Program-made: the position numbers and the translations under genes
Notes under the pieces: generated by a model
Told to the model about the DNA's origin: nothing
Database searches by the model: none
The model's input: the letters and a program-made list of their open reading frames with translations, nothing else
Source: Actinomycetota bacterium
GTDB taxonomy: Bacteria > Actinomycetota > Actinomycetes > Mycobacteriales > Mycobacteriaceae
Assembly (NCBI GenBank): GCA_018268465.1
Contig: JAFDWN010000026.1
Location: 98,909 to 162,908, forward strand
Length of the DNA stretch: 64,000 nt
Direction of reading: 5' to 3'
Part shown: piece after piece, positions 12,708-26,323 of the stretch
How positions within the stretch are numbered: position 1 is the stretch's first letter
How the letters are laid out: each line of letters begins with the position of its first letter

Positions 12708-13574
12708 TCAGCTCCGTTCGGGGTCGAGGACGAAGTTGTACGTGACCTTTTCGCTGCCGTCGGTCTGCGCCTGGGGGTCGAGTATCAACTCGGATTTGAC
12801 CGCGCTGGCGATGTCGTCGTCGTTGTGCTGGTCGCCGGGGAAATACAGTTGCGCGGTGAGCAGTTCGTGACCGGGCGCGGAGACCTTCACGTGCAGGTGG
12901 GCGGGTCGCCAGGCATGCCAGCCGGCAGCGGCGATCAACTTGCCACAGGAGCCGTCGGTCGGGATCTGATACGGCGCGGGCCGAATCGTGGTGATCCTGA
13001 AGGTGCCGTCGGGACCCGTCGAGAAGGAACCGCGGAGGTTCCATTCCGGGATGCCGGGCGCGAACTGTGAATAGAAGCCCTCGGCGTCGGCGTGCCACAG
13101 TTCGACCTTGCCCGCCAACGGAGTTCCGTCGGTGGAGGTGATGGTGCCCTCCCACACGAGCGGGGTGCCCGCCTCGTCGTCGCGCATCGGAATCGTGCCC
13201 GTGGCACCGCACTCGGGCGATGCGGGGACGTAGTAGGGACCCTCGATGGTGCCCTTGTTCCCCTCACGATGGTCGGTCGCGACGTCCTCGACGACGTGCT
13301 CCACCCACACGTCCAGGAACAGCGGCCACTCACCGTCCTGACCGACGTTGATGAGCCACGCCTTGAGCGCGTTGTACTCGTCATAGGTCACCCGGTGGCG
13401 CCGGATCGTGTCGTGCACCGCGGCCAGCACCTCGCGGGCCAAGGTGTCGACGCGTTCGGCCGGCGTGTCCTGCACGGCCGCGAACGGCGACTTGTCGGCA
13501 TGGAAGCGCTCGGTGGCCGATGCGCCCGATGCGGCGGCGGTGGCCTGCTCGGCGGGGGTCTCGATGGTGGTCAT
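12708..13574 (-). CDS. catA: Catechol 1,2-dioxygenase
   Basis: The ATG at 13574 is chosen because AGGAGA lies 6 bases upstream; the frame stays open further but the extra residues do not look like CatA. The 288-residue protein is an intradiol dioxygenase: an N-terminal helical dimerisation region (about 35-105), then the beta-sandwich with iron ligands Tyr115 (EGPYYVP), Tyr168 (EGFYSQF), His226 and His228 (RPAHLHVKV). It opens catechol between the hydroxyls to cis,cis-muconate using ferric iron and O2. It sits between catB and catC. Confidence 0.95.
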   Translation of the reverse strand: MTTIETPAEQATAAASGASATERFHADKSPFAAVQDTPAERVDTLAREVLAAVHDTIRRHRVTYDEYNALKAWLINVGQDGEWPLFLDVWVEHVVEDVATDHREGNKGTIEGPYYVPASPECGATGTIPMRDDEAGTPLVWEGTITSTDGTPLAGKVELWHADAEGFYSQFAPGIPEWNLRGSFSTGPDGTFRITTIRPAPYQIPTDGSCGKLIAAAGWHAWRPAHLHVKVSAPGHELLTAQLYFPGDQHNDDDIASAVKSELILDPQAQTDGSEKVTYNFVLDPERS

Positions 13575-13615: not shown

Positions 13616-14719
13616 TCAGTGGTCGGTGCGGTAGCGCGCGAGCTTGTCGGGGTCGATGTCGATGCCGAGTCCGACACCCGGCGGGACGTGCAGCAACCCG
13701 TCCCGGATCCGCAGGGGCTGCGCCAGCAGGTCGTCGGACATGTCGAGGAAGTTGGACAGTTCGCCGGCACGGCGCGACGTCAGCTCGTAGGCCGCACCGA
13801 ATGCGACCGCACACGCCGTGCCGAGCTGACCGTCGATCTGGTTGCCGATCACCACCTCCAGACCCAGTCCCTCGGCGAGGTGGTGCACCCGCGCCGATCC
13901 GGTGAATCCGGTGCGCGCCGTCTTGATGCTCACCGCCGTCGCCGATCCGCCGAGCACCTCGCGGGTCACGTCGGCAGGGGTGGGCACCGACTCGTCGGCG
14001 ATGAACGGCACGTCGAGCTGGCCGACCAGCCAGCGCCGGCCGAGCACATCGTCGGCGGGACACAGTTCCTCGGCGAAGAGCAGATCCAAGTCGGCCATAT
14101 CCTTCATGGCGCGCAACGACTCCGACGCGCTCCAGCCGCGATTGCCGTCGACGTACAGGTCGACGGAGTCACCGAACCGGTCACGCAGCGCGCGCACCAC
14201 CGCGGTGTCCAGCGACACCGGCAACCGTCCCACCTTCACCTTGAAGGTGGTGATGCCGTAGTCGTCGCGCATCCGTTCGGCCTCGGCGACCATCTTCGCC
14301 GGCTCGTCGAACCCCAGCATGTGGCTGACCCGCATTCGGTCGGTGTACCCGCCGAGCAGGCTGCTCACGGGCAGCTCCAGGGTGCGGCCGAGTGCGTCCC
14401 ACATCGCCATGTCGATGGCCGCCTTGGCGGTGGGGTTGCCCACCGTGCGGCCCAGCCGTTGCTGCACGACTTCGCGTTCGAGCAACGTCAGCCCGACGAT
14501 CTGCGGGGCGAAGACGTGCTCGATGACCGCGACGATGCCCGGTTGGGTCTCGCCGTAGGTGAACGGACGCGGCGGCGCCTCGGCGACCCCGACGACTCCG
14601 TCGTCGGTGTGGACGCGTACCAGCACATGCTCGGCGGCGTGCACCTCGCCCGAGGCGAACTTCAGCGGCTTGACATAGCGAATGGCGAACGGAATCGCTT
14701 CGACAGCAGTGATTTTCAC
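13616..14719 (-). CDS. catB: Muconate cycloisomerase
   Basis: The 367-residue protein is an enolase-superfamily muconate lactonising enzyme. It shows the base motif KVK at Lys160-Lys162, metal ligands Asp191 (YVDGNRGW), Glu217 (FAEE) and Asp242 (IADES), and the second base Lys266 in SIKTARTG. It converts cis,cis-muconate to muconolactone with Mn2+ or Mg2+. The start overlaps the stop of catR by 4 bases, so regulator and enzymes are cotranscribed, and catA follows after 41 bases. Confidence 0.94.
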   Translation of the reverse strand: MKITAVEAIPFAIRYVKPLKFASGEVHAAEHVLVRVHTDDGVVGVAEAPPRPFTYGETQPGIVAVIEHVFAPQIVGLTLLEREVVQQRLGRTVGNPTAKAAIDMAMWDALGRTLELPVSSLLGGYTDRMRVSHMLGFDEPAKMVAEAERMRDDYGITTFKVKVGRLPVSLDTAVVRALRDRFGDSVDLYVDGNRGWSASESLRAMKDMADLDLLFAEELCPADDVLGRRWLVGQLDVPFIADESVPTPADVTREVLGGSATAVSIKTARTGFTGSARVHHLAEGLGLEVVIGNQIDGQLGTACAVAFGAAYELTSRRAGELSNFLDMSDDLLAQPLRIRDGLLHVPPGVGLGIDIDPDKLARYRTDH

Positions 14720-15651
14720 AGAGACTCTCCCCTGACGGGATGGGTGGACGAGGGCCGGTCGAGCCGGCCGGGAACGGGGTAGGCGCTTTGCAGGACCTCG
14801 ACGACGGCGTCCACGACGGGATTCTCGGCGCCGCTGCGCCAGGCCAGAGCCAGTTCGATGGTGCCGGCGTCGAGCAGGTCGCGGAACACGACGCCGTTCA
14901 GCGGCAGCGAGCGCACCGAACCGGGCAGCACGGCCACCCCGAGGCCGGCGGCCACCAGCGCGAGCAGCACCGCGGTGCCCGGTGCGGAGTGCTCCCGGTG
15001 CGGGACGAAGCCGGCGCGCCGACAGCTGCGCAGCACCGCGTCGTTGACCGCGGAGTCGGGGCTGGAGTACGCGACGAACGACTCACCGCGCAGATCGGTC
15101 ATCGCCACGACGGGTTCGACGGCAAGGCGGTGGTCGACGGAAACCGCCAGCACGAGCGGCTCGACGTCGATGGTGCGCAGGGCGATGCCGTCGCCGGCGG
15201 CCGGGGGCCGCAGGACGCCGAGATCCAGGGCTCCGGTGCGCAGACCTTCGCACTGGGGCGGTGTCAGCATGTCGGCCCGGATCTCCAGGGCGACCGCGGG
15301 CAGTTCCCGCCGAACGATCCGCGCCATGCGGGGTAGGTGTGAGAACGCCGCGGTGCCGGTCAGTCCGATCCGCAGCAGCCCGGCGCGTCCGGCCGCGATC
15401 CTGCGCACCCCACGCTCGGCGTCTCGGACGTCGGCCAGGATGCGGTCGGCCTCGGCACGCAGGAACTCACCGGCGGCGGTCAACGACACCTGCCTGGTGG
15501 TCCGGTTGAACAGGGTGACGTCGAGTTCGGCCTCAAGCTGGCGGATGGCGTAGGACAGCGCAGGCTGCGCCACATGCAGCTGCTCGGCCGCCTGGCCGAA
15601 GTGGCACGTGTCGGCCACGGCCGCGAAGTAGCGCAGGTGCCGCAGGTCCAT
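14716..15651 (-). CDS. catR: LysR-type regulator of the cat and ben genes
   Basis: The ATG at 15651 gives the usual LysR start MDLRHLRYFAAVADTCHFGQAA; earlier codons in frame would add a basic tail not seen in the family. The 311-residue protein has the winged helix-turn-helix (1-60, with QLHVAQPALSYAIRQLEAEL) and a periplasmic-binding-like effector domain (about 90-300). It leads catBAC by a 4-base overlap and is divergent from benA. CatR/BenM-type proteins respond to cis,cis-muconate or benzoate, so it probably controls both directions. The near palindrome at 15680-15696 may be its autoregulatory site. Repressor or activator mode cannot be told from sequence. Confidence 0.82.
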   Translation of the reverse strand: MDLRHLRYFAAVADTCHFGQAAEQLHVAQPALSYAIRQLEAELDVTLFNRTTRQVSLTAAGEFLRAEADRILADVRDAERGVRRIAAGRAGLLRIGLTGTAAFSHLPRMARIVRRELPAVALEIRADMLTPPQCEGLRTGALDLGVLRPPAAGDGIALRTIDVEPLVLAVSVDHRLAVEPVVAMTDLRGESFVAYSSPDSAVNDAVLRSCRRAGFVPHREHSAPGTAVLLALVAAGLGVAVLPGSVRSLPLNGVVFRDLLDAGTIELALAWRSGAENPVVDAVVEVLQSAYPVPGRLDRPSSTHPVRGESL

Positions 15652-15921
15652 GTCCCGTTCCGATTCCCGTTCTCGTCGTGATATCCGGCGGATATCTCGT
15701 TGACGTGCCCGTTGTGATGGGCGACACGTCCACCGTAAGCACGCAATCCATACAGAACAAGGACAGATATTCGGCATTTTGATAAACGCTCGCGATTAAT
15801 AAGACCCTGGGTCAGGACTGGGAATAACCCTCGTGTGATGGATACCACGAGCTGTGAGAGTGCTGGAAAGCGTCACACACTGCGTGCACCGAGCGCATCA
15901 GCCCGCCCCACCGGAGGAACT
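15652..15921. promoter_or_regulatory. catR / benA divergent control region with LysR-type palindrome
   Basis: This 270-base gap has no gene. At 15680-15696 lies an 8-1-8 palindrome, GATATCCG-G-CGGATATC, which contains the T-N11-A core of LysR operators and lies 29 bases before catR. A second inverted repeat, CTCGTG (15830-15835) and CACGAG (15846-15851), lies nearer benA. GGAGGAAC just before 15922 is the benA ribosome-binding site. The AT-rich stretch 15770-15805 probably holds the benA promoter. Confidence 0.55.
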
Positions 15922-17307
15922 ATGACCGCATCCACCACTGCCCGTGCAACCCACCTGGCGAGCGTTCTCGCCGACGCCGTCGTCGAGGATCCCCAGTCGG
16001 GGATCTACCGGGCCAACCGGAGGATCTTCACCGACGAGGAGATCTTCGAGCTCGAGATGAAGCACGTCTTCGAAGGCAATTGGATCTACCTGGCCCACGA
16101 GAGCCAGGTGCCCAATCCCGGCGACTACTTCACCACCTACATCGGCCGCCAGCCCGTCGTGATCACCCGCGACAAGAACGGTGAGCTGAACTGTCTGATC
16201 AACGCGTGCGCACACCGCGGGGCGATGATCTGCCGGCGCAAGACCGACAACAGGATGACGCTGACGTGCCCGTTCCACGGCTGGACGTTCCGCAACGACG
16301 GCACCCTGCTCAAGGTGAAGGACCCCGACGGCGCCGGCTATCCGGAGTCGTTCAACGTCAACGGCAGCCACAACATGACCCGGGTCGCACGGTTCGACAG
16401 CTACCGCGGATTCCTGTTCGGCAGCCTCAACGCCGACGTCCTGCCGCTGGATGAACACCTGGGTGACACCACGAAGGTGATCGACATGCTCGTCGACCAG
16501 TCCCCCGACGGGCTCGAGGTGCTGCGCGGCTCGTCCACCTACACCTACGACGGCAACTGGAAGGTGCAGGCCGAGAACGGCGCCGACGGCTACCACGTCA
16601 CCGCCACCCACTGGAACTACGCCGCCACCACCAGCAGGCGCAGCACCGGCGAATCCACGAACGACACGAAGGCCCTCGACGCGGGCAGCTGGGGTAAGTC
16701 CGGCGGCGGCTACTGGTCCTTCCCGCACGGCCACCTGTGCCTGTGGACGTGGGCGGGCAACCCGCAGGACCGGCCGCTGTGGGACAAGCTCGACGAGCTC
16801 AAGGAGCAGTACGGCCAGGCCAAGGGTGAGTTCATGGTCAAGGGTTCGCGCAACCTGTGCCTGTACCCGAATGTCTATCTGATGGACCAGTTCTCGACGC
16901 AGATCCGGCACTTCCGCCCGATCGCGCCGGACCAGACCGAGGTCACCATCTACTGCATCGCCCCCAAGGGGGAGAGCGCCGAGGCCCGGGCCCACCGGAT
17001 CCGCCAGTACGAGGACTTCTTCAACGCCTCGGGCATGGCGACCCCCGACGACCTGGAGGAGTTCCGCTCCTGCCAGCTGACGTTCCGGGCCCAGGCCGCG
17101 CCGTGGAACGACATGAGCCGCGGTGCCGAGCACTGGCTCACGGGACCAGATCCCGTCGCCGAATCGCTGGGTATGGACGGTGTCGTCTCGGCTGGTGTCA
17201 AGAACGAGGACGAGGGCCTCTACCCCGTCCAGCACGGCTACTGGCTGCAGACCATGCGCGACGCCCTCGCCCGCGAAGAAGCAACCGCAACCGGAACGGA
17301 GATGTGA
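15922..17307 (+). CDS. benA: Benzoate 1,2-dioxygenase, large (alpha) subunit
   Basis: The ATG at 15922 follows GGAGGAAC and starts a 461-residue protein, the normal BenA length. The Rieske site is CAHRG...CPFHGW with Cys96, His98, Cys116 and His119. The catalytic domain shows [12 protein letters not shown] with Asp222 as bridge and His225 and His230 as ligands of the mononuclear iron. With BenB and the reductase part of the downstream fusion it dihydroxylates benzoate to the cis-1,2-diol (2-hydro-1,2-dihydroxybenzoate). First gene of benA-benB-benCD-benK. A related toluate dioxygenase cannot be excluded, but the cat genes next door favour benzoate. Confidence 0.94.
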
Positions 17308-17311
17308 CGCC

Positions 17312-17836
17312 ATGACCACCACCGAAAAATCCAGCACCACCGGGAAACTCATCACGCAGAACTCGATCGAGCAGTTCCTCTACCGGGAGGCCCGCTACCT
17401 CGACGACCGCGAGTTCGAGAAGTGGCTGGACTGTTACGCCGACGACGTCGTGTACTGGATGCCGTCGTGGGACGACAACGACACGCTCGTGGAGGATCCG
17501 CAACGGGACATCTCGCTGATCTACTACGCCAACAAGGGCGGCCTGGAGGACCGGATCTTCCGCATCCGTACCGAGCGGTCGTCGGCGACGTCGATCCCCG
17601 AACCACGCACCAGCCACAACATCAGCAACGTCGAGGTCATCGAACGCCGGGGCGAGCTGGTGGACGTCCGATTCAACTGGCACACCATGTATTTCCGGTA
17701 CAAGACCATCGACCCGTACTACGGCACCTCGTTCTACACCATCGACTTCTCCGGTGAGCAGCCGCTGATCCGGCGCAAGACCGTCGTACTCAAGAACGAC
17801 TACATCCACCACGTCGTCGACGTCTACCACTTCTGA
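17312..17836 (+). CDS. benB: Benzoate 1,2-dioxygenase, small (beta) subunit
   Basis: The 174-residue protein is a ring-hydroxylating dioxygenase beta subunit (NTF2-like cone): IEQFLYREARYLDDREFEKWLDCYADDVVYWMP near the N-terminus and the C-terminal TVVLKNDYIHHVVDVYHF. It is structural and forms the alpha3beta3 oxygenase with BenA. The start lies 4 bases after the benA stop, inside an ATGTGACGCCATG stretch, so translation is probably coupled. The fused benCD gene begins 11 bases downstream. Confidence 0.93.
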   Translation: MTTTEKSSTTGKLITQNSIEQFLYREARYLDDREFEKWLDCYADDVVYWMPSWDDNDTLVEDPQRDISLIYYANKGGLEDRIFRIRTERSSATSIPEPRTSHNISNVEVIERRGELVDVRFNWHTMYFRYKTIDPYYGTSFYTIDFSGEQPLIRRKTVVLKNDYIHHVVDVYHF

Positions 17837-17847
17837 AGGCGCACCCC

Positions 17848-20541
17848 ATGACCGACACCGGATACTCGGTGGCGTTGTCCTTCGAGGACGGCGTCACCCG
17901 CTTCATCACCTGCCGCGACGACCAGACCGTCGCCGACGCGTCCTACCGCCAGCGCATCAACATCCCGCTGGACTGCCGCGACGGTGCCTGCGGGACGTGT
18001 AAGGCGTTGTGCGAATCGGGCGACTACGACGGCGGCACCTACATCGACGACGCGCTGTCCCCCGACGAGGCGGCCGCCGGCTACGTGCTGCCGTGCAGTA
18101 TGAAACCGCGGTCGGACCTGGTCCTGCAGATCGCCAGCACCTCCGACATCGCCAAGACCCAGGCCGCCACCTACACCGGGACGCTGGTGCGGCTGGATCG
18201 GTTGTCCGCCACCACCGTCGAAATCGGCATCGAGATCCCCAACCGATCCGAACTGGCGTTCCTGCCCGGGCAGTACGTGAACATCGCGGTGCCCGGTACC
18301 GGCGGCGACACCCCGGTCACCAGGTCGTACTCGTTCTCCAACGCCCCGCGGGAGAACCTGCTCACCTTCCTGGTGAAACTGACTCCGGGCGGGGCGATGT
18401 CGGAGTATCTGGCCCAGCGCGCCGCGGTCGGGGACACCATCACGTTCACCGGCCCCAACGGGTCGTTCTTCCTGCGGGAGGCGCAGCGGCCCGCGCTGCT
18501 GCTCGCCGGCGGCACGGGTCTGGCCCCGATCCTGGCCATACTGCGGAAACTGCGTGACGACGGCAGCCACCGCAAGGTGCACCTCGTGTACGGCGTGAGC
18601 ACCGACGAGGATGTCGTCGCACTCGATGCGATCGACGACATCGCCTCGACGCTGCCGGGTTTCACCTGGGACTACTGCGTCGCCGACCCGTCGAGCGCGG
18701 CCGCCAACAAGGGCCCGGAGCGGGCCTACGTGACCAGCCTGATCGGGCCGGAGCACCTTTATGACGGCGACGTCGCCGTGTACCTCTGCGGCCCGCCGCC
18801 GATGGTGGAGTCGGTGCGCCGTCACGTCGCCGACGCCGGGATCGACCCGTCCGGGTTCTACTACGAGAAGTTCGCCCTGGCCCACGCACCGGCCACCGCA
18901 CTCCCGGGGCAGGACACCGAAACACGCTCCACGACAACCGTCGAGGAGCTCCTCGTGTCCGCCGATGCGCGCACCGTCGCGGGGCAGGTGATGCTGCGGC
19001 CTGCGGAGCTGAGCGCCCTGCTCGGCGGCGCCGCCGACACCGGCGACAGTATCCGCCGGATCGCCGGGCAGCTGATGGTTCCGGTCGCCGCAGGCGGCGT
19101 CACCACACCGCTGGACGTCGACAGCGAGCTGTTGATCTCTGCCGGGGCGCGCTCGGTGGCCGGTCAGGAAGTGTTCGCCGCCGCGGCCGCGCGTCCTGTC
19201 TCCGCACCCGCCCCGGTCCCCGTGTCCGCTCCGCCGGCGGTGGCTGCCGCACCCGCGGTGGCACAGGACGGCTACCAGATCGGCGAGGAACATCCCGAGG
19301 TCCACGAGTCCGACGCCCTCTTCGAAGCACGCCAGGCACTCGAACTCGGCGCGCTGGAACTGACTCTGGGCAGGCTCTCCAGCCGTCAGATCGCCGGCTA
19401 CCGCCTGCTCGCGGAGTCGACGCTGCCGTATGTCGACGGCGACCGGTTCGTCGACGCGGCCCAGTACACCGAGACCAACGCGGCATTCCACGACTACCTG
19501 TTCACCCTGACCGGCAACGAACACCTGCTGCAGGCCTATCAGGCACTCGGGGTGAAGGGGCGGATGGGCGAGGTACTGCGCAACGCGACATGGTGCCATC
19601 CCCTGTGCGCACGCGACCATGTCGATATCGTCGACGCATTCGAGGCAGGCGACCGAACCGCTGCCCGCGATTTGATCACCGCGCACGCCGACCGGGCCAA
19701 GCAGACCATGCGCCGCGCGATGGCGGACTCGCTTGCACGGCGGCGCCCGAAGTTCGTCACCCCCGGCAGGTTCGCGGGCAAGGTCGTCGTCGTCACGGGC
19801 GCCGCGCAGGGCATCGGCGAGCACACCGCCCGCCGGATCAGCGCAGAAGGCGGCACCCTGGTGGTTGCCGACCGCTCCGAGCTGGTCAAGGAACTCGCCG
19901 ACGAGCTGTCCACCGGCGGGCCGGAGGCGCTCGCCGTCACCGCCGACCTGGAACACTGGGAGGGCGCGGAAAGCGTCGCCCGCCAGGCTCTGTCGGCCTT
20001 CGGCCGGATCGACGTGCTGGTCAACAACGTCGGTGGTGCGATCAACTTCAAACCGTTCACCGAGTTCAGCGACGCCGAGATCCGCGCCGAGATCGACCGG
20101 TCCCTGATGACCACGCTGTACTCCTGCCGCGCGGCGCTGCCCTCGATGGTCGCGCGGGGACAAGGCGTCATCGTCAACGTCTCCTCGGCCGCGACCCGCG
20201 GCATCCACCGCATCCCCTACTCGGCCGCCAAGGGCGGGATCAACGCCATCACCGCATCGCTGGCCATGGAGTACGCCGACAACGGCATCCGGGTGGTCGC
20301 CACCGCACCCGGCGGAACCGAGGCGCCACCCCGGCGCATCTCCCGCGGCACACCCGAGCCTGGCAACGAGACCCAGCGGGCCTGGTTCGACGCCCACATC
20401 GAGCAGACGGTGGACTCGTCGTTGCTCAAGCGCTACGGCACGCTCGACGAGCAGGTCGCCGCGATCTGCTTCCTGGCCTCCGAGGAGGCGTCCTACATCA
20501 CCGGAACCGTCCTGCCCGTCGCGGGCGGCGACCTCGGCTGA
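17848..20541 (+). CDS. benCD: BenC-FCD-BenD fusion: benzoate dioxygenase reductase, FCD-like domain and benzoate diol dehydrogenase in one chain
   Basis: One uninterrupted frame of 897 codons holds three parts. Residues 1-345 are BenC: 2Fe-2S cysteines 43, 48, 51 and 83, flavin motif RSYSFSN at 159-165, NAD motif GGTGLAP at 221-227. Residues 346-483 are a linker with two near copies of SADARTVAGQ (371-380 and 431-440) and an Ala/Pro-rich stretch. Residues about 484-628 look like the FCD effector domain of GntR regulators, with His548, His591 and His613 at the positions of its metal-binding histidines, but there is no DNA-binding domain. Residues 635-897 are BenD, an SDR with TGAAQGIG at 650-657 and catalytic Tyr791/Lys795. 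The outer parts supply electrons to BenAB and oxidise the diol to catechol. The NADH made by BenD equals that used by BenC, so fusion could aid recycling (inference). Codon use is like its neighbours. Confidence 0.9.
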   Translation: MTDTGYSVALSFEDGVTRFITCRDDQTVADASYRQRINIPLDCRDGACGTCKALCESGDYDGGTYIDDALSPDEAAAGYVLPCSMKPRSDLVLQIASTSDIAKTQAATYTGTLVRLDRLSATTVEIGIEIPNRSELAFLPGQYVNIAVPGTGGDTPVTRSYSFSNAPRENLLTFLVKLTPGGAMSEYLAQRAAVGDTITFTGPNGSFFLREAQRPALLLAGGTGLAPILAILRKLRDDGSHRKVHLVYGVSTDEDVVALDAIDDIASTLPGFTWDYCVADPSSAAANKGPERAYVTSLIGPEHLYDGDVAVYLCGPPPMVESVRRHVADAGIDPSGFYYEKFALAHAPATALPGQDTETRSTTTVEELLVSADARTVAGQVMLRPAELSALLGGAADTGDSIRRIAGQLMVPVAAGGVTTPLDVDSELLISAGARSVAGQEVFAAAAARPVSAPAPVPVSAPPAVAAAPAVAQDGYQIGEEHPEVHESDALFEARQALELGALELTLGRLSSRQIAGYRLLAESTLPYVDGDRFVDAAQYTETNAAFHDYLFTLTGNEHLLQAYQALGVKGRMGEVLRNATWCHPLCARDHVDIVDAFEAGDRTAARDLITAHADRAKQTMRRAMADSLARRRPKFVTPGRFAGKVVVVTGAAQGIGEHTARRISAEGGTLVVADRSELVKELADELSTGGPEALAVTADLEHWEGAESVARQALSAFGRIDVLVNNVGGAINFKPFTEFSDAEIRAEIDRSLMTTLYSCRAALPSMVARGQGVIVNVSSAATRGIHRIPYSAAKGGINAITASLAMEYADNGIRVVATAPGGTEAPPRRISRGTPEPGNETQRAWFDAHIEQTVDSSLLKRYGTLDEQVAAICFLASEEASYITGTVLPVAGGDLG

Positions 20542-20593: not shown

Positions 20594-21898
20594 ATGCCCG
20601 AAAACCGAAGAGCGCGCGCCCTCGCTTGGGTAGTCGCCCTCTCCACCGCTGCGCTCGTCTTCGACGGATACGACCTGGTCGTCTACGGCACCGTCGTACC
20701 CACCCTGCTCGCCGATCCGTCCCAGCTCGGTGCGATCTCACCCGAACAGGCGGGCGCACTGGGCAGCTACGCCCTCATCGGCGTCATGGTGGGCGCGCTG
20801 GCCGCAGGCGCGATCGGTGACCGCGTCGGCCGGCGCGCCGTCATGCTGGTCAACCTCGGATGGTTCTCGGTCGGGATGCTGCTCACCGCATTCGCCCAGT
20901 CGGTGACCATGTTCGGCTTCTTCCGGTTCCTGACCGGGATCGGCGTCGGCGCCCTGGTCGCCACCGTGGGCGCGCTCGTGGCCGAATTCGCCGAGCCGCA
21001 TCAGCGCAATCGGCTCAACGCCGTCGTGTACAGCGGGATCCCCGCAGGCGGTGTCCTGGCGGCGCTGGCCGCTCTGCTCTTCGCCGACAGCGACAGCTGG
21101 CGGATCCTCTTCGCGTTCGGTGCGCTGCCGTTCGTGACACTGCTCCCCCTTGCGGTGTGGAAGCTGCCCGAATCCCCGCGCTGGCTGATGTCGCGGGGAC
21201 GCGAGGAGGAAGCCGTCGCGCTGGCCGCGCGCACCGGCGTCACCCTGCCGTCTGCGACCGAATCAGACACCGGCGGTGTCGGTTTCGCGGCACTGGTACG
21301 CAAGCCGCTGGTCGGACCGACCGCCCTGCTCGGCTTGATGAGCTTCGTCGGCCTGCTGCTGACGTATGGCCTCAACACGTGGCTGCCGCAGATCATGCAG
21401 AGCAACGGCTACGGCAAGACCTACTCGCTGACGTTCCTGCTGGTGCTCAACCTCGGCGCGATCCTCGGTGGTCTGTTCGCGTCCTACGTCGCCGACCGGC
21501 TCGGCAGCGCCCAACGCGTCGTAGTCACGACCTTCGTCCTCGCCGCGGCGATGCTGCTCCTGCTTCCGCTGAGTCTTCCGCTTGGCGCGCTGCTCGCCGC
21601 CGTCGCGATCGCGGGTGTGGGAACGATCGGCACGCAGGTGCTGATCTACGGACTGGTGTCGAACTACTACCCCACCCGGGCGCGTGCCGCCGGAGTCGCG
21701 TGGTGCGCAGGGTTCGGCCGCCTCGGCGGGATCGTCGGACCGGTGATCGGCGGGCTGCTGGTCGGCGCCGGGGTCGGCGGGTCGGTCGCATTCCTGATCT
21801 TCGCGGCGCTGGCCCTGCTCGGCGCCATGGTCACCGCCTTCGTGCCGAAGAGCCGTTCGCCGATGCCCGCCACCGATCAGGTCGCCGCGTCGGTATAG
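20594..21898 (+). CDS. benK: Benzoate transporter, AAHS family of the MFS
   Basis: The 434-residue protein has about 12 hydrophobic segments and the marks of aromatic acid:H+ symporters: DGYD at 24-27 in the first membrane segment, needed for transport in BenK/PcaK, and GDRVGRR in the loop between segments 2 and 3. It is the last gene of the ben operon, 52 bases after benCD, so benzoate is the expected substrate; other aromatic acids are possible. A strong inverted repeat at 21912-21975 follows and ends the operon against the convergent quinone oxidoreductase gene. Confidence 0.9.
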   Translation: MPENRRARALAWVVALSTAALVFDGYDLVVYGTVVPTLLADPSQLGAISPEQAGALGSYALIGVMVGALAAGAIGDRVGRRAVMLVNLGWFSVGMLLTAFAQSVTMFGFFRFLTGIGVGALVATVGALVAEFAEPHQRNRLNAVVYSGIPAGGVLAALAALLFADSDSWRILFAFGALPFVTLLPLAVWKLPESPRWLMSRGREEEAVALAARTGVTLPSATESDTGGVGFAALVRKPLVGPTALLGLMSFVGLLLTYGLNTWLPQIMQSNGYGKTYSLTFLLVLNLGAILGGLFASYVADRLGSAQRVVVTTFVLAAAMLLLLPLSLPLGALLAAVAIAGVGTIGTQVLIYGLVSNYYPTRARAAGVAWCAGFGRLGGIVGPVIGGLLVGAGVGGSVAFLIFAALALLGAMVTAFVPKSRSPMPATDQVAASV

Positions 21899-21911
21899 CC
21901 GCTACCCCGTG

Positions 21912-21975
21912 CGCCGAATGTGCGGTTGTTGTACGGGTTTCGCGAGAGCGACCGTCAACAACCGTACATTCGGCG
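21912..21975. repeat. Intergenic inverted repeat between convergent genes (hairpin family A, copy 1)
   Basis: Arms of 20 bases (21912-21931 and 21956-21975) pair with one mismatch around a 24-base loop containing TCGCG. It sits between benK and the convergent quinone oxidoreductase gene, so it may act as a bidirectional terminator. The arm starts CGCCGAATGTGCGGTTGTT and resembles the repeat at 30714-30777, which suggests a mobile or recurrent element rather than a plain terminator. Confidence 0.65.
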
Positions 21976-23620: not shown

Positions 23621-26323
23621 GTGCGGTCATCCCCGGGCTCTCGCACAAAAACGGGTACAACAACCGTGCGCCCGGCATGGTCGAACTACCATGTGACGGT
23701 GGTCATCGGGTCAACCCCCTTCGTCGGGCGTGACCTGGAGCTGACCGAACTGGCCGACCGCCTCGCCGACATGCACGGCGTCGACGTGGTCGCCGTCGTC
23801 GGCGAGGCAGGCATCGGTAAGACGGCGCTGCTGCGCAGGCTTGCGGCCGCACACCCGGGAAGTCTGTGGGCCCAGGCGGCCGCGTGGGAATCCGGCACGC
23901 CCGGCGGGATGCTCGCTCAGCTGCTCGACGGGAACGCCGCCCCGGACCCGGTGGTCGCCGCAGAGCAGCTGGCCGACGCGGCGGCCGACGCGCGGCTCAT
24001 CGCGGTCGACGATGCGGACAACGCCGATACCCTTTCCCTGCAGTCGCTTTCGACCATGCTCCGACGCCACCGCGACCTGCCGGTGCTGGTCGTACTCGGC
24101 GCCGTATCCGTGCCGTCGACGCTGACCGACGTCGTCACCGGCGAGCTGCGGCTCACCGGGCTGGACAGCCCGGCGGTGGCCGCACTCGCCGCCACCCGCG
24201 GCAGGATCATCCATCCCGCCATGGCCGACGCGCTGACCCGGCACACCCGCGGCAACCCCCGCGATGTGCACGCACTGCTCGACGAACTGCCTGCCACGCT
24301 GTGGTCGCAGCCCGACGCACCGCTACCCGCCCCCTCCTACGTCGTCACCCGGGTCGGGAATCAGTTGCAGCAGTGTGGTTCCGACGCGCGGAGCCTGGTC
24401 GAGGCACTCGCGATCCTCGGCCCCGCGGCGAGTCTGGCCGAAGTGGCGACGCTGGCCGGCCTCGGCGACCCGTCCGCGGCGATCGACGAGGCGGCGGCGG
24501 CGGGTCTCATCGCGGGCGGTTCGCGATTCGAGCCCCGGCTACGCGACCACCTCACCCGGGCCGCGGTGGTCGACCTGATGGGAACACGGGGGGCGAGCCG
24601 GGTCCACCAACGCGCCGCGGAGATCGTCATCGATCCGGCCCGCCGGGTCGCGCACCGGGTCGCCGCCGCTCCCCTGCCCGATACCGCACTCGCCGACGAT
24701 GTGGCCATCCTCGCCGGCGAACGAGCCGCGGAAGGCGCATGGGCCGAAGCCGCCACGTTGTTCCGGGATGCCAGCAGGCTGACCCCCGACCCGCTGGTTC
24801 GCGACGAACGGCTCACCAGGTCGGTGGATGCGCTGATCGCCGCCGGCGATTGTGCCGGCGCGGCCGCACAGGTCCCCGCGATCGAGAGCCTTCGCGAAAC
24901 ACCGCTGCGTAACGCGGTTTTGGCGTACCTGGCGATAGTGCGCGGACGCGCCACCGAGGCCGAGGTCCGGCTGCGGCGCGCCGACGACATCGTCAACATC
25001 GACCGGGACCCCGACACCGCGGCACTGATCGCCCAGCGCTATGTGCTGCATTCCCTGGTCCGGTGCAGGGGCGAGGAACTGGTCGGCTGGGCCGACCGGG
25101 CCATCGATCTGGCGGGACGGGAGTCCTCGGCGGGGATCGAGGCGGCGGCGATCCGTGGCCTCGGGCTCGCCGCGACCGGTCAATCCCGCCAGGCCACCGC
25201 CGCGTACGACGAACTGGCGAGCTGGGTGCGGCACGGCGCCCAGGCGCAGCGGGTCACGATGGCGCGGGGCTGGCTGCAACTCATCCGCGACGACGTCGAC
25301 GGCGCCAGGTCCAGTCTGGAGAGCGCGGTGGCCACCGCGGGTCTGGGTGGTTCGGCGCGGATCACGCTGTGGGCCCACGCGTGGCTGGCCCGCGTCCAGT
25401 TCGCCACCGGCGAGTGGGACCGTGCGTTGCAGACCGTCGAGCTGGGCCGGGCACTCACCGCGTCGAGCGGGATCGTCCTGGCGGAGCCGCTGCTGGAGTG
25501 GACGGCCGCGCAGGTTCATGCGCTGCGGGGCAACTGGGCCGCCGCGGACGCCGCGGTGCGCAACGCCGAGGCGGTCACCCAGGACTACGAGATCATGCGG
25601 ATACCGACACTGCTGGGCAAGGCGCAGATCGCCGAGGCGGAGGCCGACTATGCGAAGGTGCGGCGGGTGCTCGATCCGTTGCGGGCGATGGCGCCCGGCA
25701 CCTCGCTGCAGGAACCCGGACACTGGCCCTGGGTCGACGTGCTCGCCAACGCGATGGTGATCGACGGTCAGCTCGACGCGGCGGATACGTTCCTGCGGCC
25801 CTTCGAATCCCGCGCTCGCGCCCGCGGGCACCGGTCGACGCAGGCCCGGTTGGGGTATGCCAGGGGCAGGCTGCTCGGTGCCGCCGGTGACCTGCCCGCC
25901 GCGCGACGGGCGTTCGAGGAGTCGCTGCGTGTCCTCGAGGGTCTGCCCCTGCGCTACGACCTGGCCCGGGTGAACTTCGCGTTCGGGCAGACCCTGCGGC
26001 GGGCCGGTAAGCGCCGCCAGGCCGACGAGGTGATCAGCACCGCCCGCGACCTGTATGTCTCGCTGGGCGCCGACACCTATGTGGCACGGTGCGACCGAGA
26101 GCTCAAAGCCGGTGGCGTGCACCAGGTTCGCGGTTCACGCGACAACGTCGAACTGACCCCCCAGGAAGAGGCGGTGACGTCCCTGGTCGCCCAGGGACTG
26201 TCGAACCGCGAGGTGGCCGCGGAACTGTTCGTGTCACCCAAGACGGTGCAGTATCACCTGACCCGGATCTACGCCAAGCTCGGGGTGCGGTCGCGCTCCG
26301 AGCTCGCGGCGTTGCGGCGCTGA
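23621..26323 (+). CDS. Large ATP-binding LuxR-family (LAL-type) regulator
   Basis: The 900-residue frame (GTG at 23621; a GTG at 23693 would give 876 residues starting just before the FVGRDLEL segment and is a good alternative) has the LAL layout. An AAA-type ATPase comes first, with Walker A GEAGIGKT at 61-68. A long helical, TPR-like middle of about 500 residues follows, and a LuxR helix-turn-helix ends the protein ([36 protein letters not shown] in outline). These are signal-integrating activators; MalT is the best-known relative. Its ligand and targets are not visible. The 3' end overlaps the convergent pcaJ gene by 55 bases. Confidence 0.83.

Follow-up and report, generated by a model that had tools for sequence, protein, structure and literature searches.

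A BenC-FCD-BenD fusion protein in an actinobacterial ben locus and the relatives of its middle domain

The ben locus and its fusion frame

The DNA analysed here is a 64,000-nucleotide stretch (hereafter the window) of contig JAFDWN010000026.1, from a genome of the Mycobacteriaceae. It contains a ben locus in which the reductase of benzoate 1,2-dioxygenase (BenC) and the diol dehydrogenase (BenD) are encoded, with an FCD domain of the GntR regulator type between them, by one uninterrupted frame of 897 residues (17848-20541, plus strand, from an ATG at 17848 to a stop codon ending at 20541). Reading of the frame together with NCBIfam and Pfam matches gives the order BenC, linker, FCD, BenD. Residues 6-343 (17863-18876) match the NCBIfam BenC model NF040810 with 461.9 bits (cut-off 430), and Pfam Fer2, FAD_binding_6 and NAD_binding_1 were all found in this part, which is thus assigned to BenC. 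Residues 641-897 (19768-20538), a short-chain dehydrogenase/reductase, match the BenD model NF040811 with 412.1 bits (cut-off 380). The [2Fe-2S] cysteines Cys43, Cys48, Cys51 and Cys83, as well as Tyr791 and Lys795 of the Tyr-x3-Lys motif of BenD, are unchanged in 50/50 aligned fusions. Two annotated proteobacterial records have one gene for each enzyme, benC with 336-341 codons and benD with 258-261. The next-best match to the BenC part in the same genome has 30% identity, and those to the BenD part, short-chain dehydrogenases in general, reach at most 40%, so that no second close copy of either enzyme was found there. No P450 domain matched anywhere in the chain with Pfam, which sets it apart from the reductase-FCD-P450 proteins of the KU-64 type described below.

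A preliminary description of this DNA had proposed a single 897-codon frame with domain limits at 1-345, 484-628 and 635-897. The limits were essentially right, if slightly wide at each domain, and comparison of the chain with BenC and BenD placed both above curated cut-offs. The frame reads through with neither stop nor frameshift near 18900-19750, and it is kept in relatives. Because 38 of the 47 sampled genomes with BenC and all 80 retained loci of a wider scan (see below) have this frame, a sequencing frameshift or an assembly artefact is ruled out. A start codon preceded by a Shine-Dalgarno-like word occurs between FCD and BenD in 5 of these 80 loci, and none was seen by eye in the window; the control is weak, with such a word before the assigned fusion start in 27/80. 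Production of a separate BenD from an internal start does not appear to be a conserved feature, but may still occur.

The middle domain was recognized as FCD by Pfam (PF07729), with 56.8 bits (cut-off 24.3, E 3.9e-15) at residues 491-615 (19318-19692) of the whole chain and 60.0 bits (E 4.1e-16) when residues 484-628 were searched alone, as the preliminary description had anticipated. Its view that the domain comes without a DNA-binding part also held: no helix-turn-helix (HTH) family, winged HTH PF00392 included, matched residues 346-634 or the whole chain at E≤1 in Pfam, and besides FCD only a weak capsid family matched residues 346-634 at this threshold. FCD is present in 50/50 aligned fusions and has the all-helical fold of the family. 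Its best matches among solved folds include the inducer-binding domain of DhdR, VanR with citrate and Zn-bound TM0439; a PDB search with a sequence profile of the domain returned nothing at E≤0.01. These FCD-type GntR regulators share the fold but possess a DNA-binding part that the window protein lacks. The alignment places His548, His591 and His613 exactly at the usual metal positions, as had been suggested, with Asn544 rather than Asp at the fourth. By comparison with FCD structures, these four residues would be metal ligands. All four residues are identical in 110/110 distinct aligned FCDs, and the same N/H/H/H set can be read in one further protein outside that alignment (L116). The pattern N/D-x3-H ... 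H ... H is also visible in most regulator sequences compared. Sequence conservation spans much of the domain, beyond the site residues.

Upstream of the fusion and on the same strand lie benA, for the large subunit of benzoate 1,2-dioxygenase (15922-17307; TIGR03229, 809.8 bits, cut-off 780.95; start placed by eye in a frame that opens at 15835), and benB, for the small subunit (17312-17836; TIGR03232, 271.3 bits, cut-off 225.55), separated from the fusion by 11 bases. Downstream, a benK-like gene of the major facilitator superfamily (20594-21898, plus) resembles aromatic acid/H+ symporters (TIGR00895, 249.3 bits, below the cut-off of 418.55). Behind the operon stands a terminator-like hairpin (21907-21925, plus), identified by consensus match only, in a stretch where six such hairpins were found and 2.2 are expected. 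A frame for a LysR-type regulator (14716-15777, minus), whose start is not settled, diverges from benA and matches several LysR models, all below cut-off. It is neighboured by a catB-like gene resembling muconate cycloisomerase (13616-14719, minus; TIGR02534, 204.3 bits, below the cut-off of 334.95) and by catA, for catechol 1,2-dioxygenase (12708-13553, minus, the matched part of a longer frame; TIGR02438, 489.4 bits, cut-off 404.4). The gene order is therefore catA, catB-like and LysR-type on the minus strand, followed by benA, benB, fusion and benK-like on the plus strand. A scan for sigma-70 promoters found 0, with 0.6 expected. A large gene farther downstream (23621-26323) has a LuxR-like end, as judged by eye.

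Distribution of the fusion

The fusion is common in actinobacteria. Among 397 genomes sampled from the order, 47, including that of the window, contain a protein above the BenC cut-off, and 38 of these (again counting the window) encode BenC-linker-FCD-BenD. The remaining nine comprise two genomes with a BenC-FCD protein and a separate BenD (L086 and L090; 512 and 533 residues), two with a fused BenC-BenD devoid of FCD (L096, L102) and five with a plain BenC and a separate BenD (L084, L085, L087, L120, L121), where L085 was so counted with its BenD split over two frames in the draft. Identity to the window protein across the 37 other fusions is 70-90% for FCD, 59-80% for BenC and 65-85% for BenD; that of the linker is 31-49% in the 34/37 that BLAST could align. 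A sample of 394 genomes from the class gave 13 above the BenC cut-off, 10 of them already in the order sample, and added two fusions and one BenC-FCD protein above the cut-off, together with a plain BenC that scores below it.

GTDB species genomes were then scanned with the FCD alignment. The scan confirmed 206 loci, of which the best 80 were kept: all 80 encode the full fusion, and each is preceded by benA and benB in the same orientation. Selection by an FCD query and retention of the best matches lean this set towards the fusion, and it overlaps the order sample and includes near-copies. The 80 loci come from Mycobacterium, Mycolicibacterium, Mycolicibacter, Gordonia, Williamsia, Aldersonia, Antrihabitans, Rhodococcus, Amycolatopsis, Saccharopolyspora, Pseudonocardia, Nocardioides, Knoellia and Kitasatospora, and from a few metagenome-assembled genomes.

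Six of 72,556 plasmid records matched the FCD at E≤1e-6, five from Paraburkholderia and one from Tsukamurella. The latter, Tsukamurella tyrosinosolvens plasmid NZ_LR134459.1 (239 kb; L216), carries a LysR-benA-benB-fusion cluster whose fusion is 860 residues long. In the two plasmid records with annotation, the whole chain is named simply benC (Tsukamurella WP_068741130.1 and Paraburkholderia WP_310819464.1), a label that hides both the FCD domain and the second enzyme.

Lineage of the FCD domain and the repeated linker motif

In the five Paraburkholderia plasmid copies (L215:3984-6770 and L217-L220), a BenC-type reductase, FCD and a cytochrome P450 follow one another in one frame, as determined with Pfam on one of the five. 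Two further proteins combine a flavin reductase with the domain according to Pfam: flavin reductase-GntR-FCD in L118 (4983-6191, minus), which adjoins a gene resembling 4-hydroxyphenylacetate 3-hydroxylase by eye, and flavin reductase-FCD in L119 (3051-5447). In L251 (3953-5143), a flavin reductase-GntR-FCD protein was also recognized, both on visual reading and from its similarity to L118. L118, L119 and L251 are apparently another set of reductases with regulator domains. On a plasmid of Pseudarthrobacter chlorophenolicus A6 (L252:3968-4747), a flavin reductase that, judged by eye, ends in an HTH-like tail and lacks FCD lies near a gene of the 4-hydroxyphenylacetate 3-hydroxylase type. The presence of FCD on BenC proteins that lack BenD, and on P450 and flavin reductases, argues that the partner of the domain is the reductase, not BenD.

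We constructed trees of BenC (78 rows) and of FCD (55 rows), both rooted at their midpoints. In the BenC tree, the fusions and their derivatives form one group of 63 rows (support 100/100), adjoined by the BenC-FCD proteins (96/87 together), although the grouping of the three BenC-FCD rows among themselves is weak (89/24). The FCD-less fusions and the L120/L121 pair fall inside the fusion group. By parsimony this placement suggests that FCD was lost three times, once along with the splitting off of BenD; the absence of FCD in 7/47 BenC genomes would then correspond to these three losses and to two basal lineages without the domain. No FCD was detected by Pfam at E≤1 in L096, L102, L120, L121, L084 and L087. 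The two natural FCD-less fusions lie at L096:3614-6316, in a one-contig genome, and at L102:4825-7071 (minus), in a draft of about 220 contigs where a stub of the FCD end remains and the loss could be an assembly fault.

The FCD tree contains a clade of 25 (99/98) whose members are all linked to reductases except for one ordinary GntR-FCD regulator (L214, HTH by eye). It comprises 15 rows of BenC-FCD-BenD, the BenC-FCD proteins L086, L090 and L116, three of the five reductase-FCD-P450 copies, the flavin reductase-GntR-FCD proteins L118 and L251, the latter on a long branch, and the flavin reductase-FCD protein L119. Thirty other FCD proteins from five genomes, the best 30 of 131 Pfam matches there and called regulators from family membership, all fall outside it. 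Within the clade, the FCDs of BenC-FCD proteins and fusions group together (97/93), as do those of the fusions alone (99/99), and those of the Paraburkholderia P450 proteins branch next, with weak support (82/44). In a sample of 296 genomes from the phylum, the closest FCDs outside ben loci were those of L118 and L119 in one search and of L118 and L214 in another. The domain may derive from a GntR-type regulator that lost its DNA-binding part and joined BenC first, BenD being added later.

The linker (residues 346-483, 18883-19296) is mostly below 50 in predicted local distance difference test (pLDDT) score in the structure model and, from the composition of 80 linkers, rich in Ala, Pro, Gly and Glu. 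Within the low-confidence model are three short beta hairpins, at residues 376-381, 404-409 and 436-441, each of which falls on a copy of an R-x-[IV]-A-G-Q motif: ARTVAGQVML (374-383, 18967-18996), IRRIAGQLMV (402-411, 19051-19080) and ARSVAGQEVF (434-443, 19147-19176). In the linkers of the 80 loci (68 to 200 residues), the pattern R-x-[ILV]-[AVICGTLS]-G-Q occurs 161 times, against a mean of 0.2 and at most 3 copies in 1000 rounds of shuffling; it was picked after viewing the linkers and related rows are non-independent, but we judge the gap to be far beyond either effect. At least one copy is present in 75/80 linkers, at least two in 62/80 and at least three in 23/80.

The FCD-less fusions L096 and L102 (also L021 and L027) retain copies of the motif, and one copy remains where the split BenC of L120/L121 (also L051/L053) ends, whereas the BenC-FCD proteins L086/L090 (also L011/L015) have none. 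Motif and FCD thus appear to be separate modules, the motif travelling with the BenD fusion. We also considered whether the motif serves docking throughout the cell. With only 150 first-look candidates scored in most genomes, a 24-position profile of it, searched in 16 genomes (10 with a BenC-BenD fusion and 6 without), matched at E<0.04 solely inside the fusion, and this idea was rejected. The scan missed a degenerate copy behind BenC in G207/G281; two matches outside the fusion (E 0.045 and 0.047) outscore the copies in the fusion of G285 itself (0.09).

Known relatives and a possible role for the FCD domain

The architecture is already known from one Gordonia genome, and the window protein is another member. 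In Gordonia alkanivorans YC-RL2, benC and benD were described in 2019 as fused together with an FCD domain, with a LysR gene upstream and a LuxR gene downstream of ben, as in the window (PMC6362181). The two sentences given to the protein in that genome paper assign no function and do not state that FCD lies between the enzymes, a position that we find in G. alkanivorans NBRC 16433 (L140). For Rhodococcus ruber Chol-4, which grows on benzoate, a figure legend names benC as reductase component/diol dehydrogenase, thereby implying a fusion; a separate benD is listed too, and the passages on benC in that paper make no mention of FCD (PMC6498646). R. ruber IEGM 1391 (L191) carries the fusion. A reductase of Rhodococcus sp. 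19070, BopZ, was reportedly found by Haddad et al. in 2001 to be about 200 residues longer than BenC, with an unexplained C-terminus unlike known proteins. BenD is not fused to BopZ; its extra part may be an FCD, as the comparable layout of L086 and L090 would suggest, and the FCD of the fusion may then explain this extension as well. A literature search for BopZ gave only unrelated uses of the word. Our searches found neither a functional study of FCD in BenC nor an account of a reductase-FCD clade; the linker motif was not searched for. What sequence comparison appears to add here is the reductase-linked FCD clade, its invariant N/H/H/H site and the repeated linker motif.

The self-sufficient P450 of Paraburkholderia terrae KU-64 is reported to hydroxylate cyclohexanecarboxylate (Yamamoto et al. 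2022, as cited in PMC9687028). Like the window fusion, it carries an FCD-like domain behind a [2Fe-2S] and FAD reductase, and its substrate is a ring carboxylate; it differs in carrying a P450 in place of BenD and in lacking the long linker (PMC9687028). The five Paraburkholderia plasmid copies share its domain order. In the reductase HpaC (C1) of Acinetobacter baumannii, a C-terminal MarR domain inhibits the enzyme until substrate binds, a mode of stimulation called uncommon in that source (PMC10816480). HpaC and the window chain are thus both oxygenase reductases with a regulator-type effector domain C-terminal to the reductase, FCD instead of MarR in the window. HpaC serves a two-component monooxygenase through diffusible flavin, and no common ancestry of the two sensing domains is claimed.

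On the strength of this analogy, and since two carriers act on ring carboxylates, namely benzoate and cyclohexanecarboxylate, we propose that FCD is a sensor for such an acid and gates the electron supply of BenC, a reading to which we would give a probability of about one half. A gate on the enzyme, with benzoate or muconate as the possible ligand, had already been raised in the preliminary description. The occurrence of the same FCD lineage on other oxygenase reductases, the invariant site and the published MarR-gated reductase suggest that comparison favours it. The protein combines in one chain that half of benzoate dioxygenase which supplies electrons and dehydrogenates the product. FCD and BenD, about 25 residues apart, would form a core, and BenC would reach the BenAB oxygenase on a long flexible arm. 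As the key step, FCD would bind benzoate or the diol at the N/H/H/H site, probably via a metal, and the ligand-bound domain would relieve an inhibition of BenC, so that neither NADH nor O2 would be wasted when substrate is missing. In oxygenases, electron flow in the absence of substrate can consume NADH to no purpose and generate reactive oxygen. Dioxygenation costs one NADH and the diol dehydrogenase gives one back; acting on the diol, BenD would remake what BenC spends. A paper on TsaC/TsaD deals with the recycling of NADH in Rieske chemistry (PMC10579966). If FCD gates BenC, actinobacterial benzoate breakdown would have a substrate control at the enzyme level that is absent from the separate BenC of Proteobacteria, and the domain could serve as a part for building substrate-gated oxygenases. 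A wider and quite tentative extension, which we hold to be doubtful, is that the sensing domain of a regulator became a transferable electron-supply gate, one FCD lineage controlling the reductases of unrelated Rieske, P450 and flavin oxygenases, two or more of which have ring carboxylates as substrates. In this view the linker hairpins would dock the swinging BenC arm either to the three-fold BenAB oxygenase or to the core of FCD and BenD, and a single chain would form a closed machine that recycles NADH.

The main rival to gating, unlikely but to be taken seriously, is that FCD senses nothing and is structural, pairing two chains and keeping BenD together with the BenC arm in a common assembly. 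FCD domains of regulators form pairs, conservation extends over much of the domain and not the site alone, and the long tether with its repeated motif resembles assembly hardware. A scaffold, however, need not keep Asn544 and the three histidines in every aligned FCD, two fusions hold BenC and BenD together without the domain, and such a role leaves unexplained why this lineage also occurs on P450 and flavin reductases and on BenC proteins that are not fused to BenD. It is improbable that the site merely holds diol or benzoate and passes it to BenD or BenAB, a channelling role: the short distance between FCD and BenD, the ring carboxylate nature of the BenD substrate and the presence of consecutive enzymes in one chain would fit, but FCD also occurs on BenC without a fused BenD (L086, L090, L116) and before the P450 in Paraburkholderia. 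A functionless relic of a chance fusion, which the three losses and the seven FCD-less BenC genomes could reflect, has a slightly smaller chance still, given that identity to the window is as high in FCD as in the catalytic domains and that the site is invariant. Very improbable, finally, is an additional part in gene control, for instance through binding of FCD to the operon's LysR or LuxR regulator: the LysR-type frame divergent from benA and the LuxR-like gene end downstream, both reported in Gordonia too, would allow it, but the chain has no DNA-binding part and nothing supports it directly.

A second BenC-like reductase, with 287-300 bits and hence below the BenC cut-off, was observed in eight genomes of the genus of the window (L055-L062, for example L058:2468-5029, minus). 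It belongs to frames of 854-1006 residues, the remainder of which, in L058 and L061, resembles FAD-dependent oxidoreductases by a weak Pfam match.

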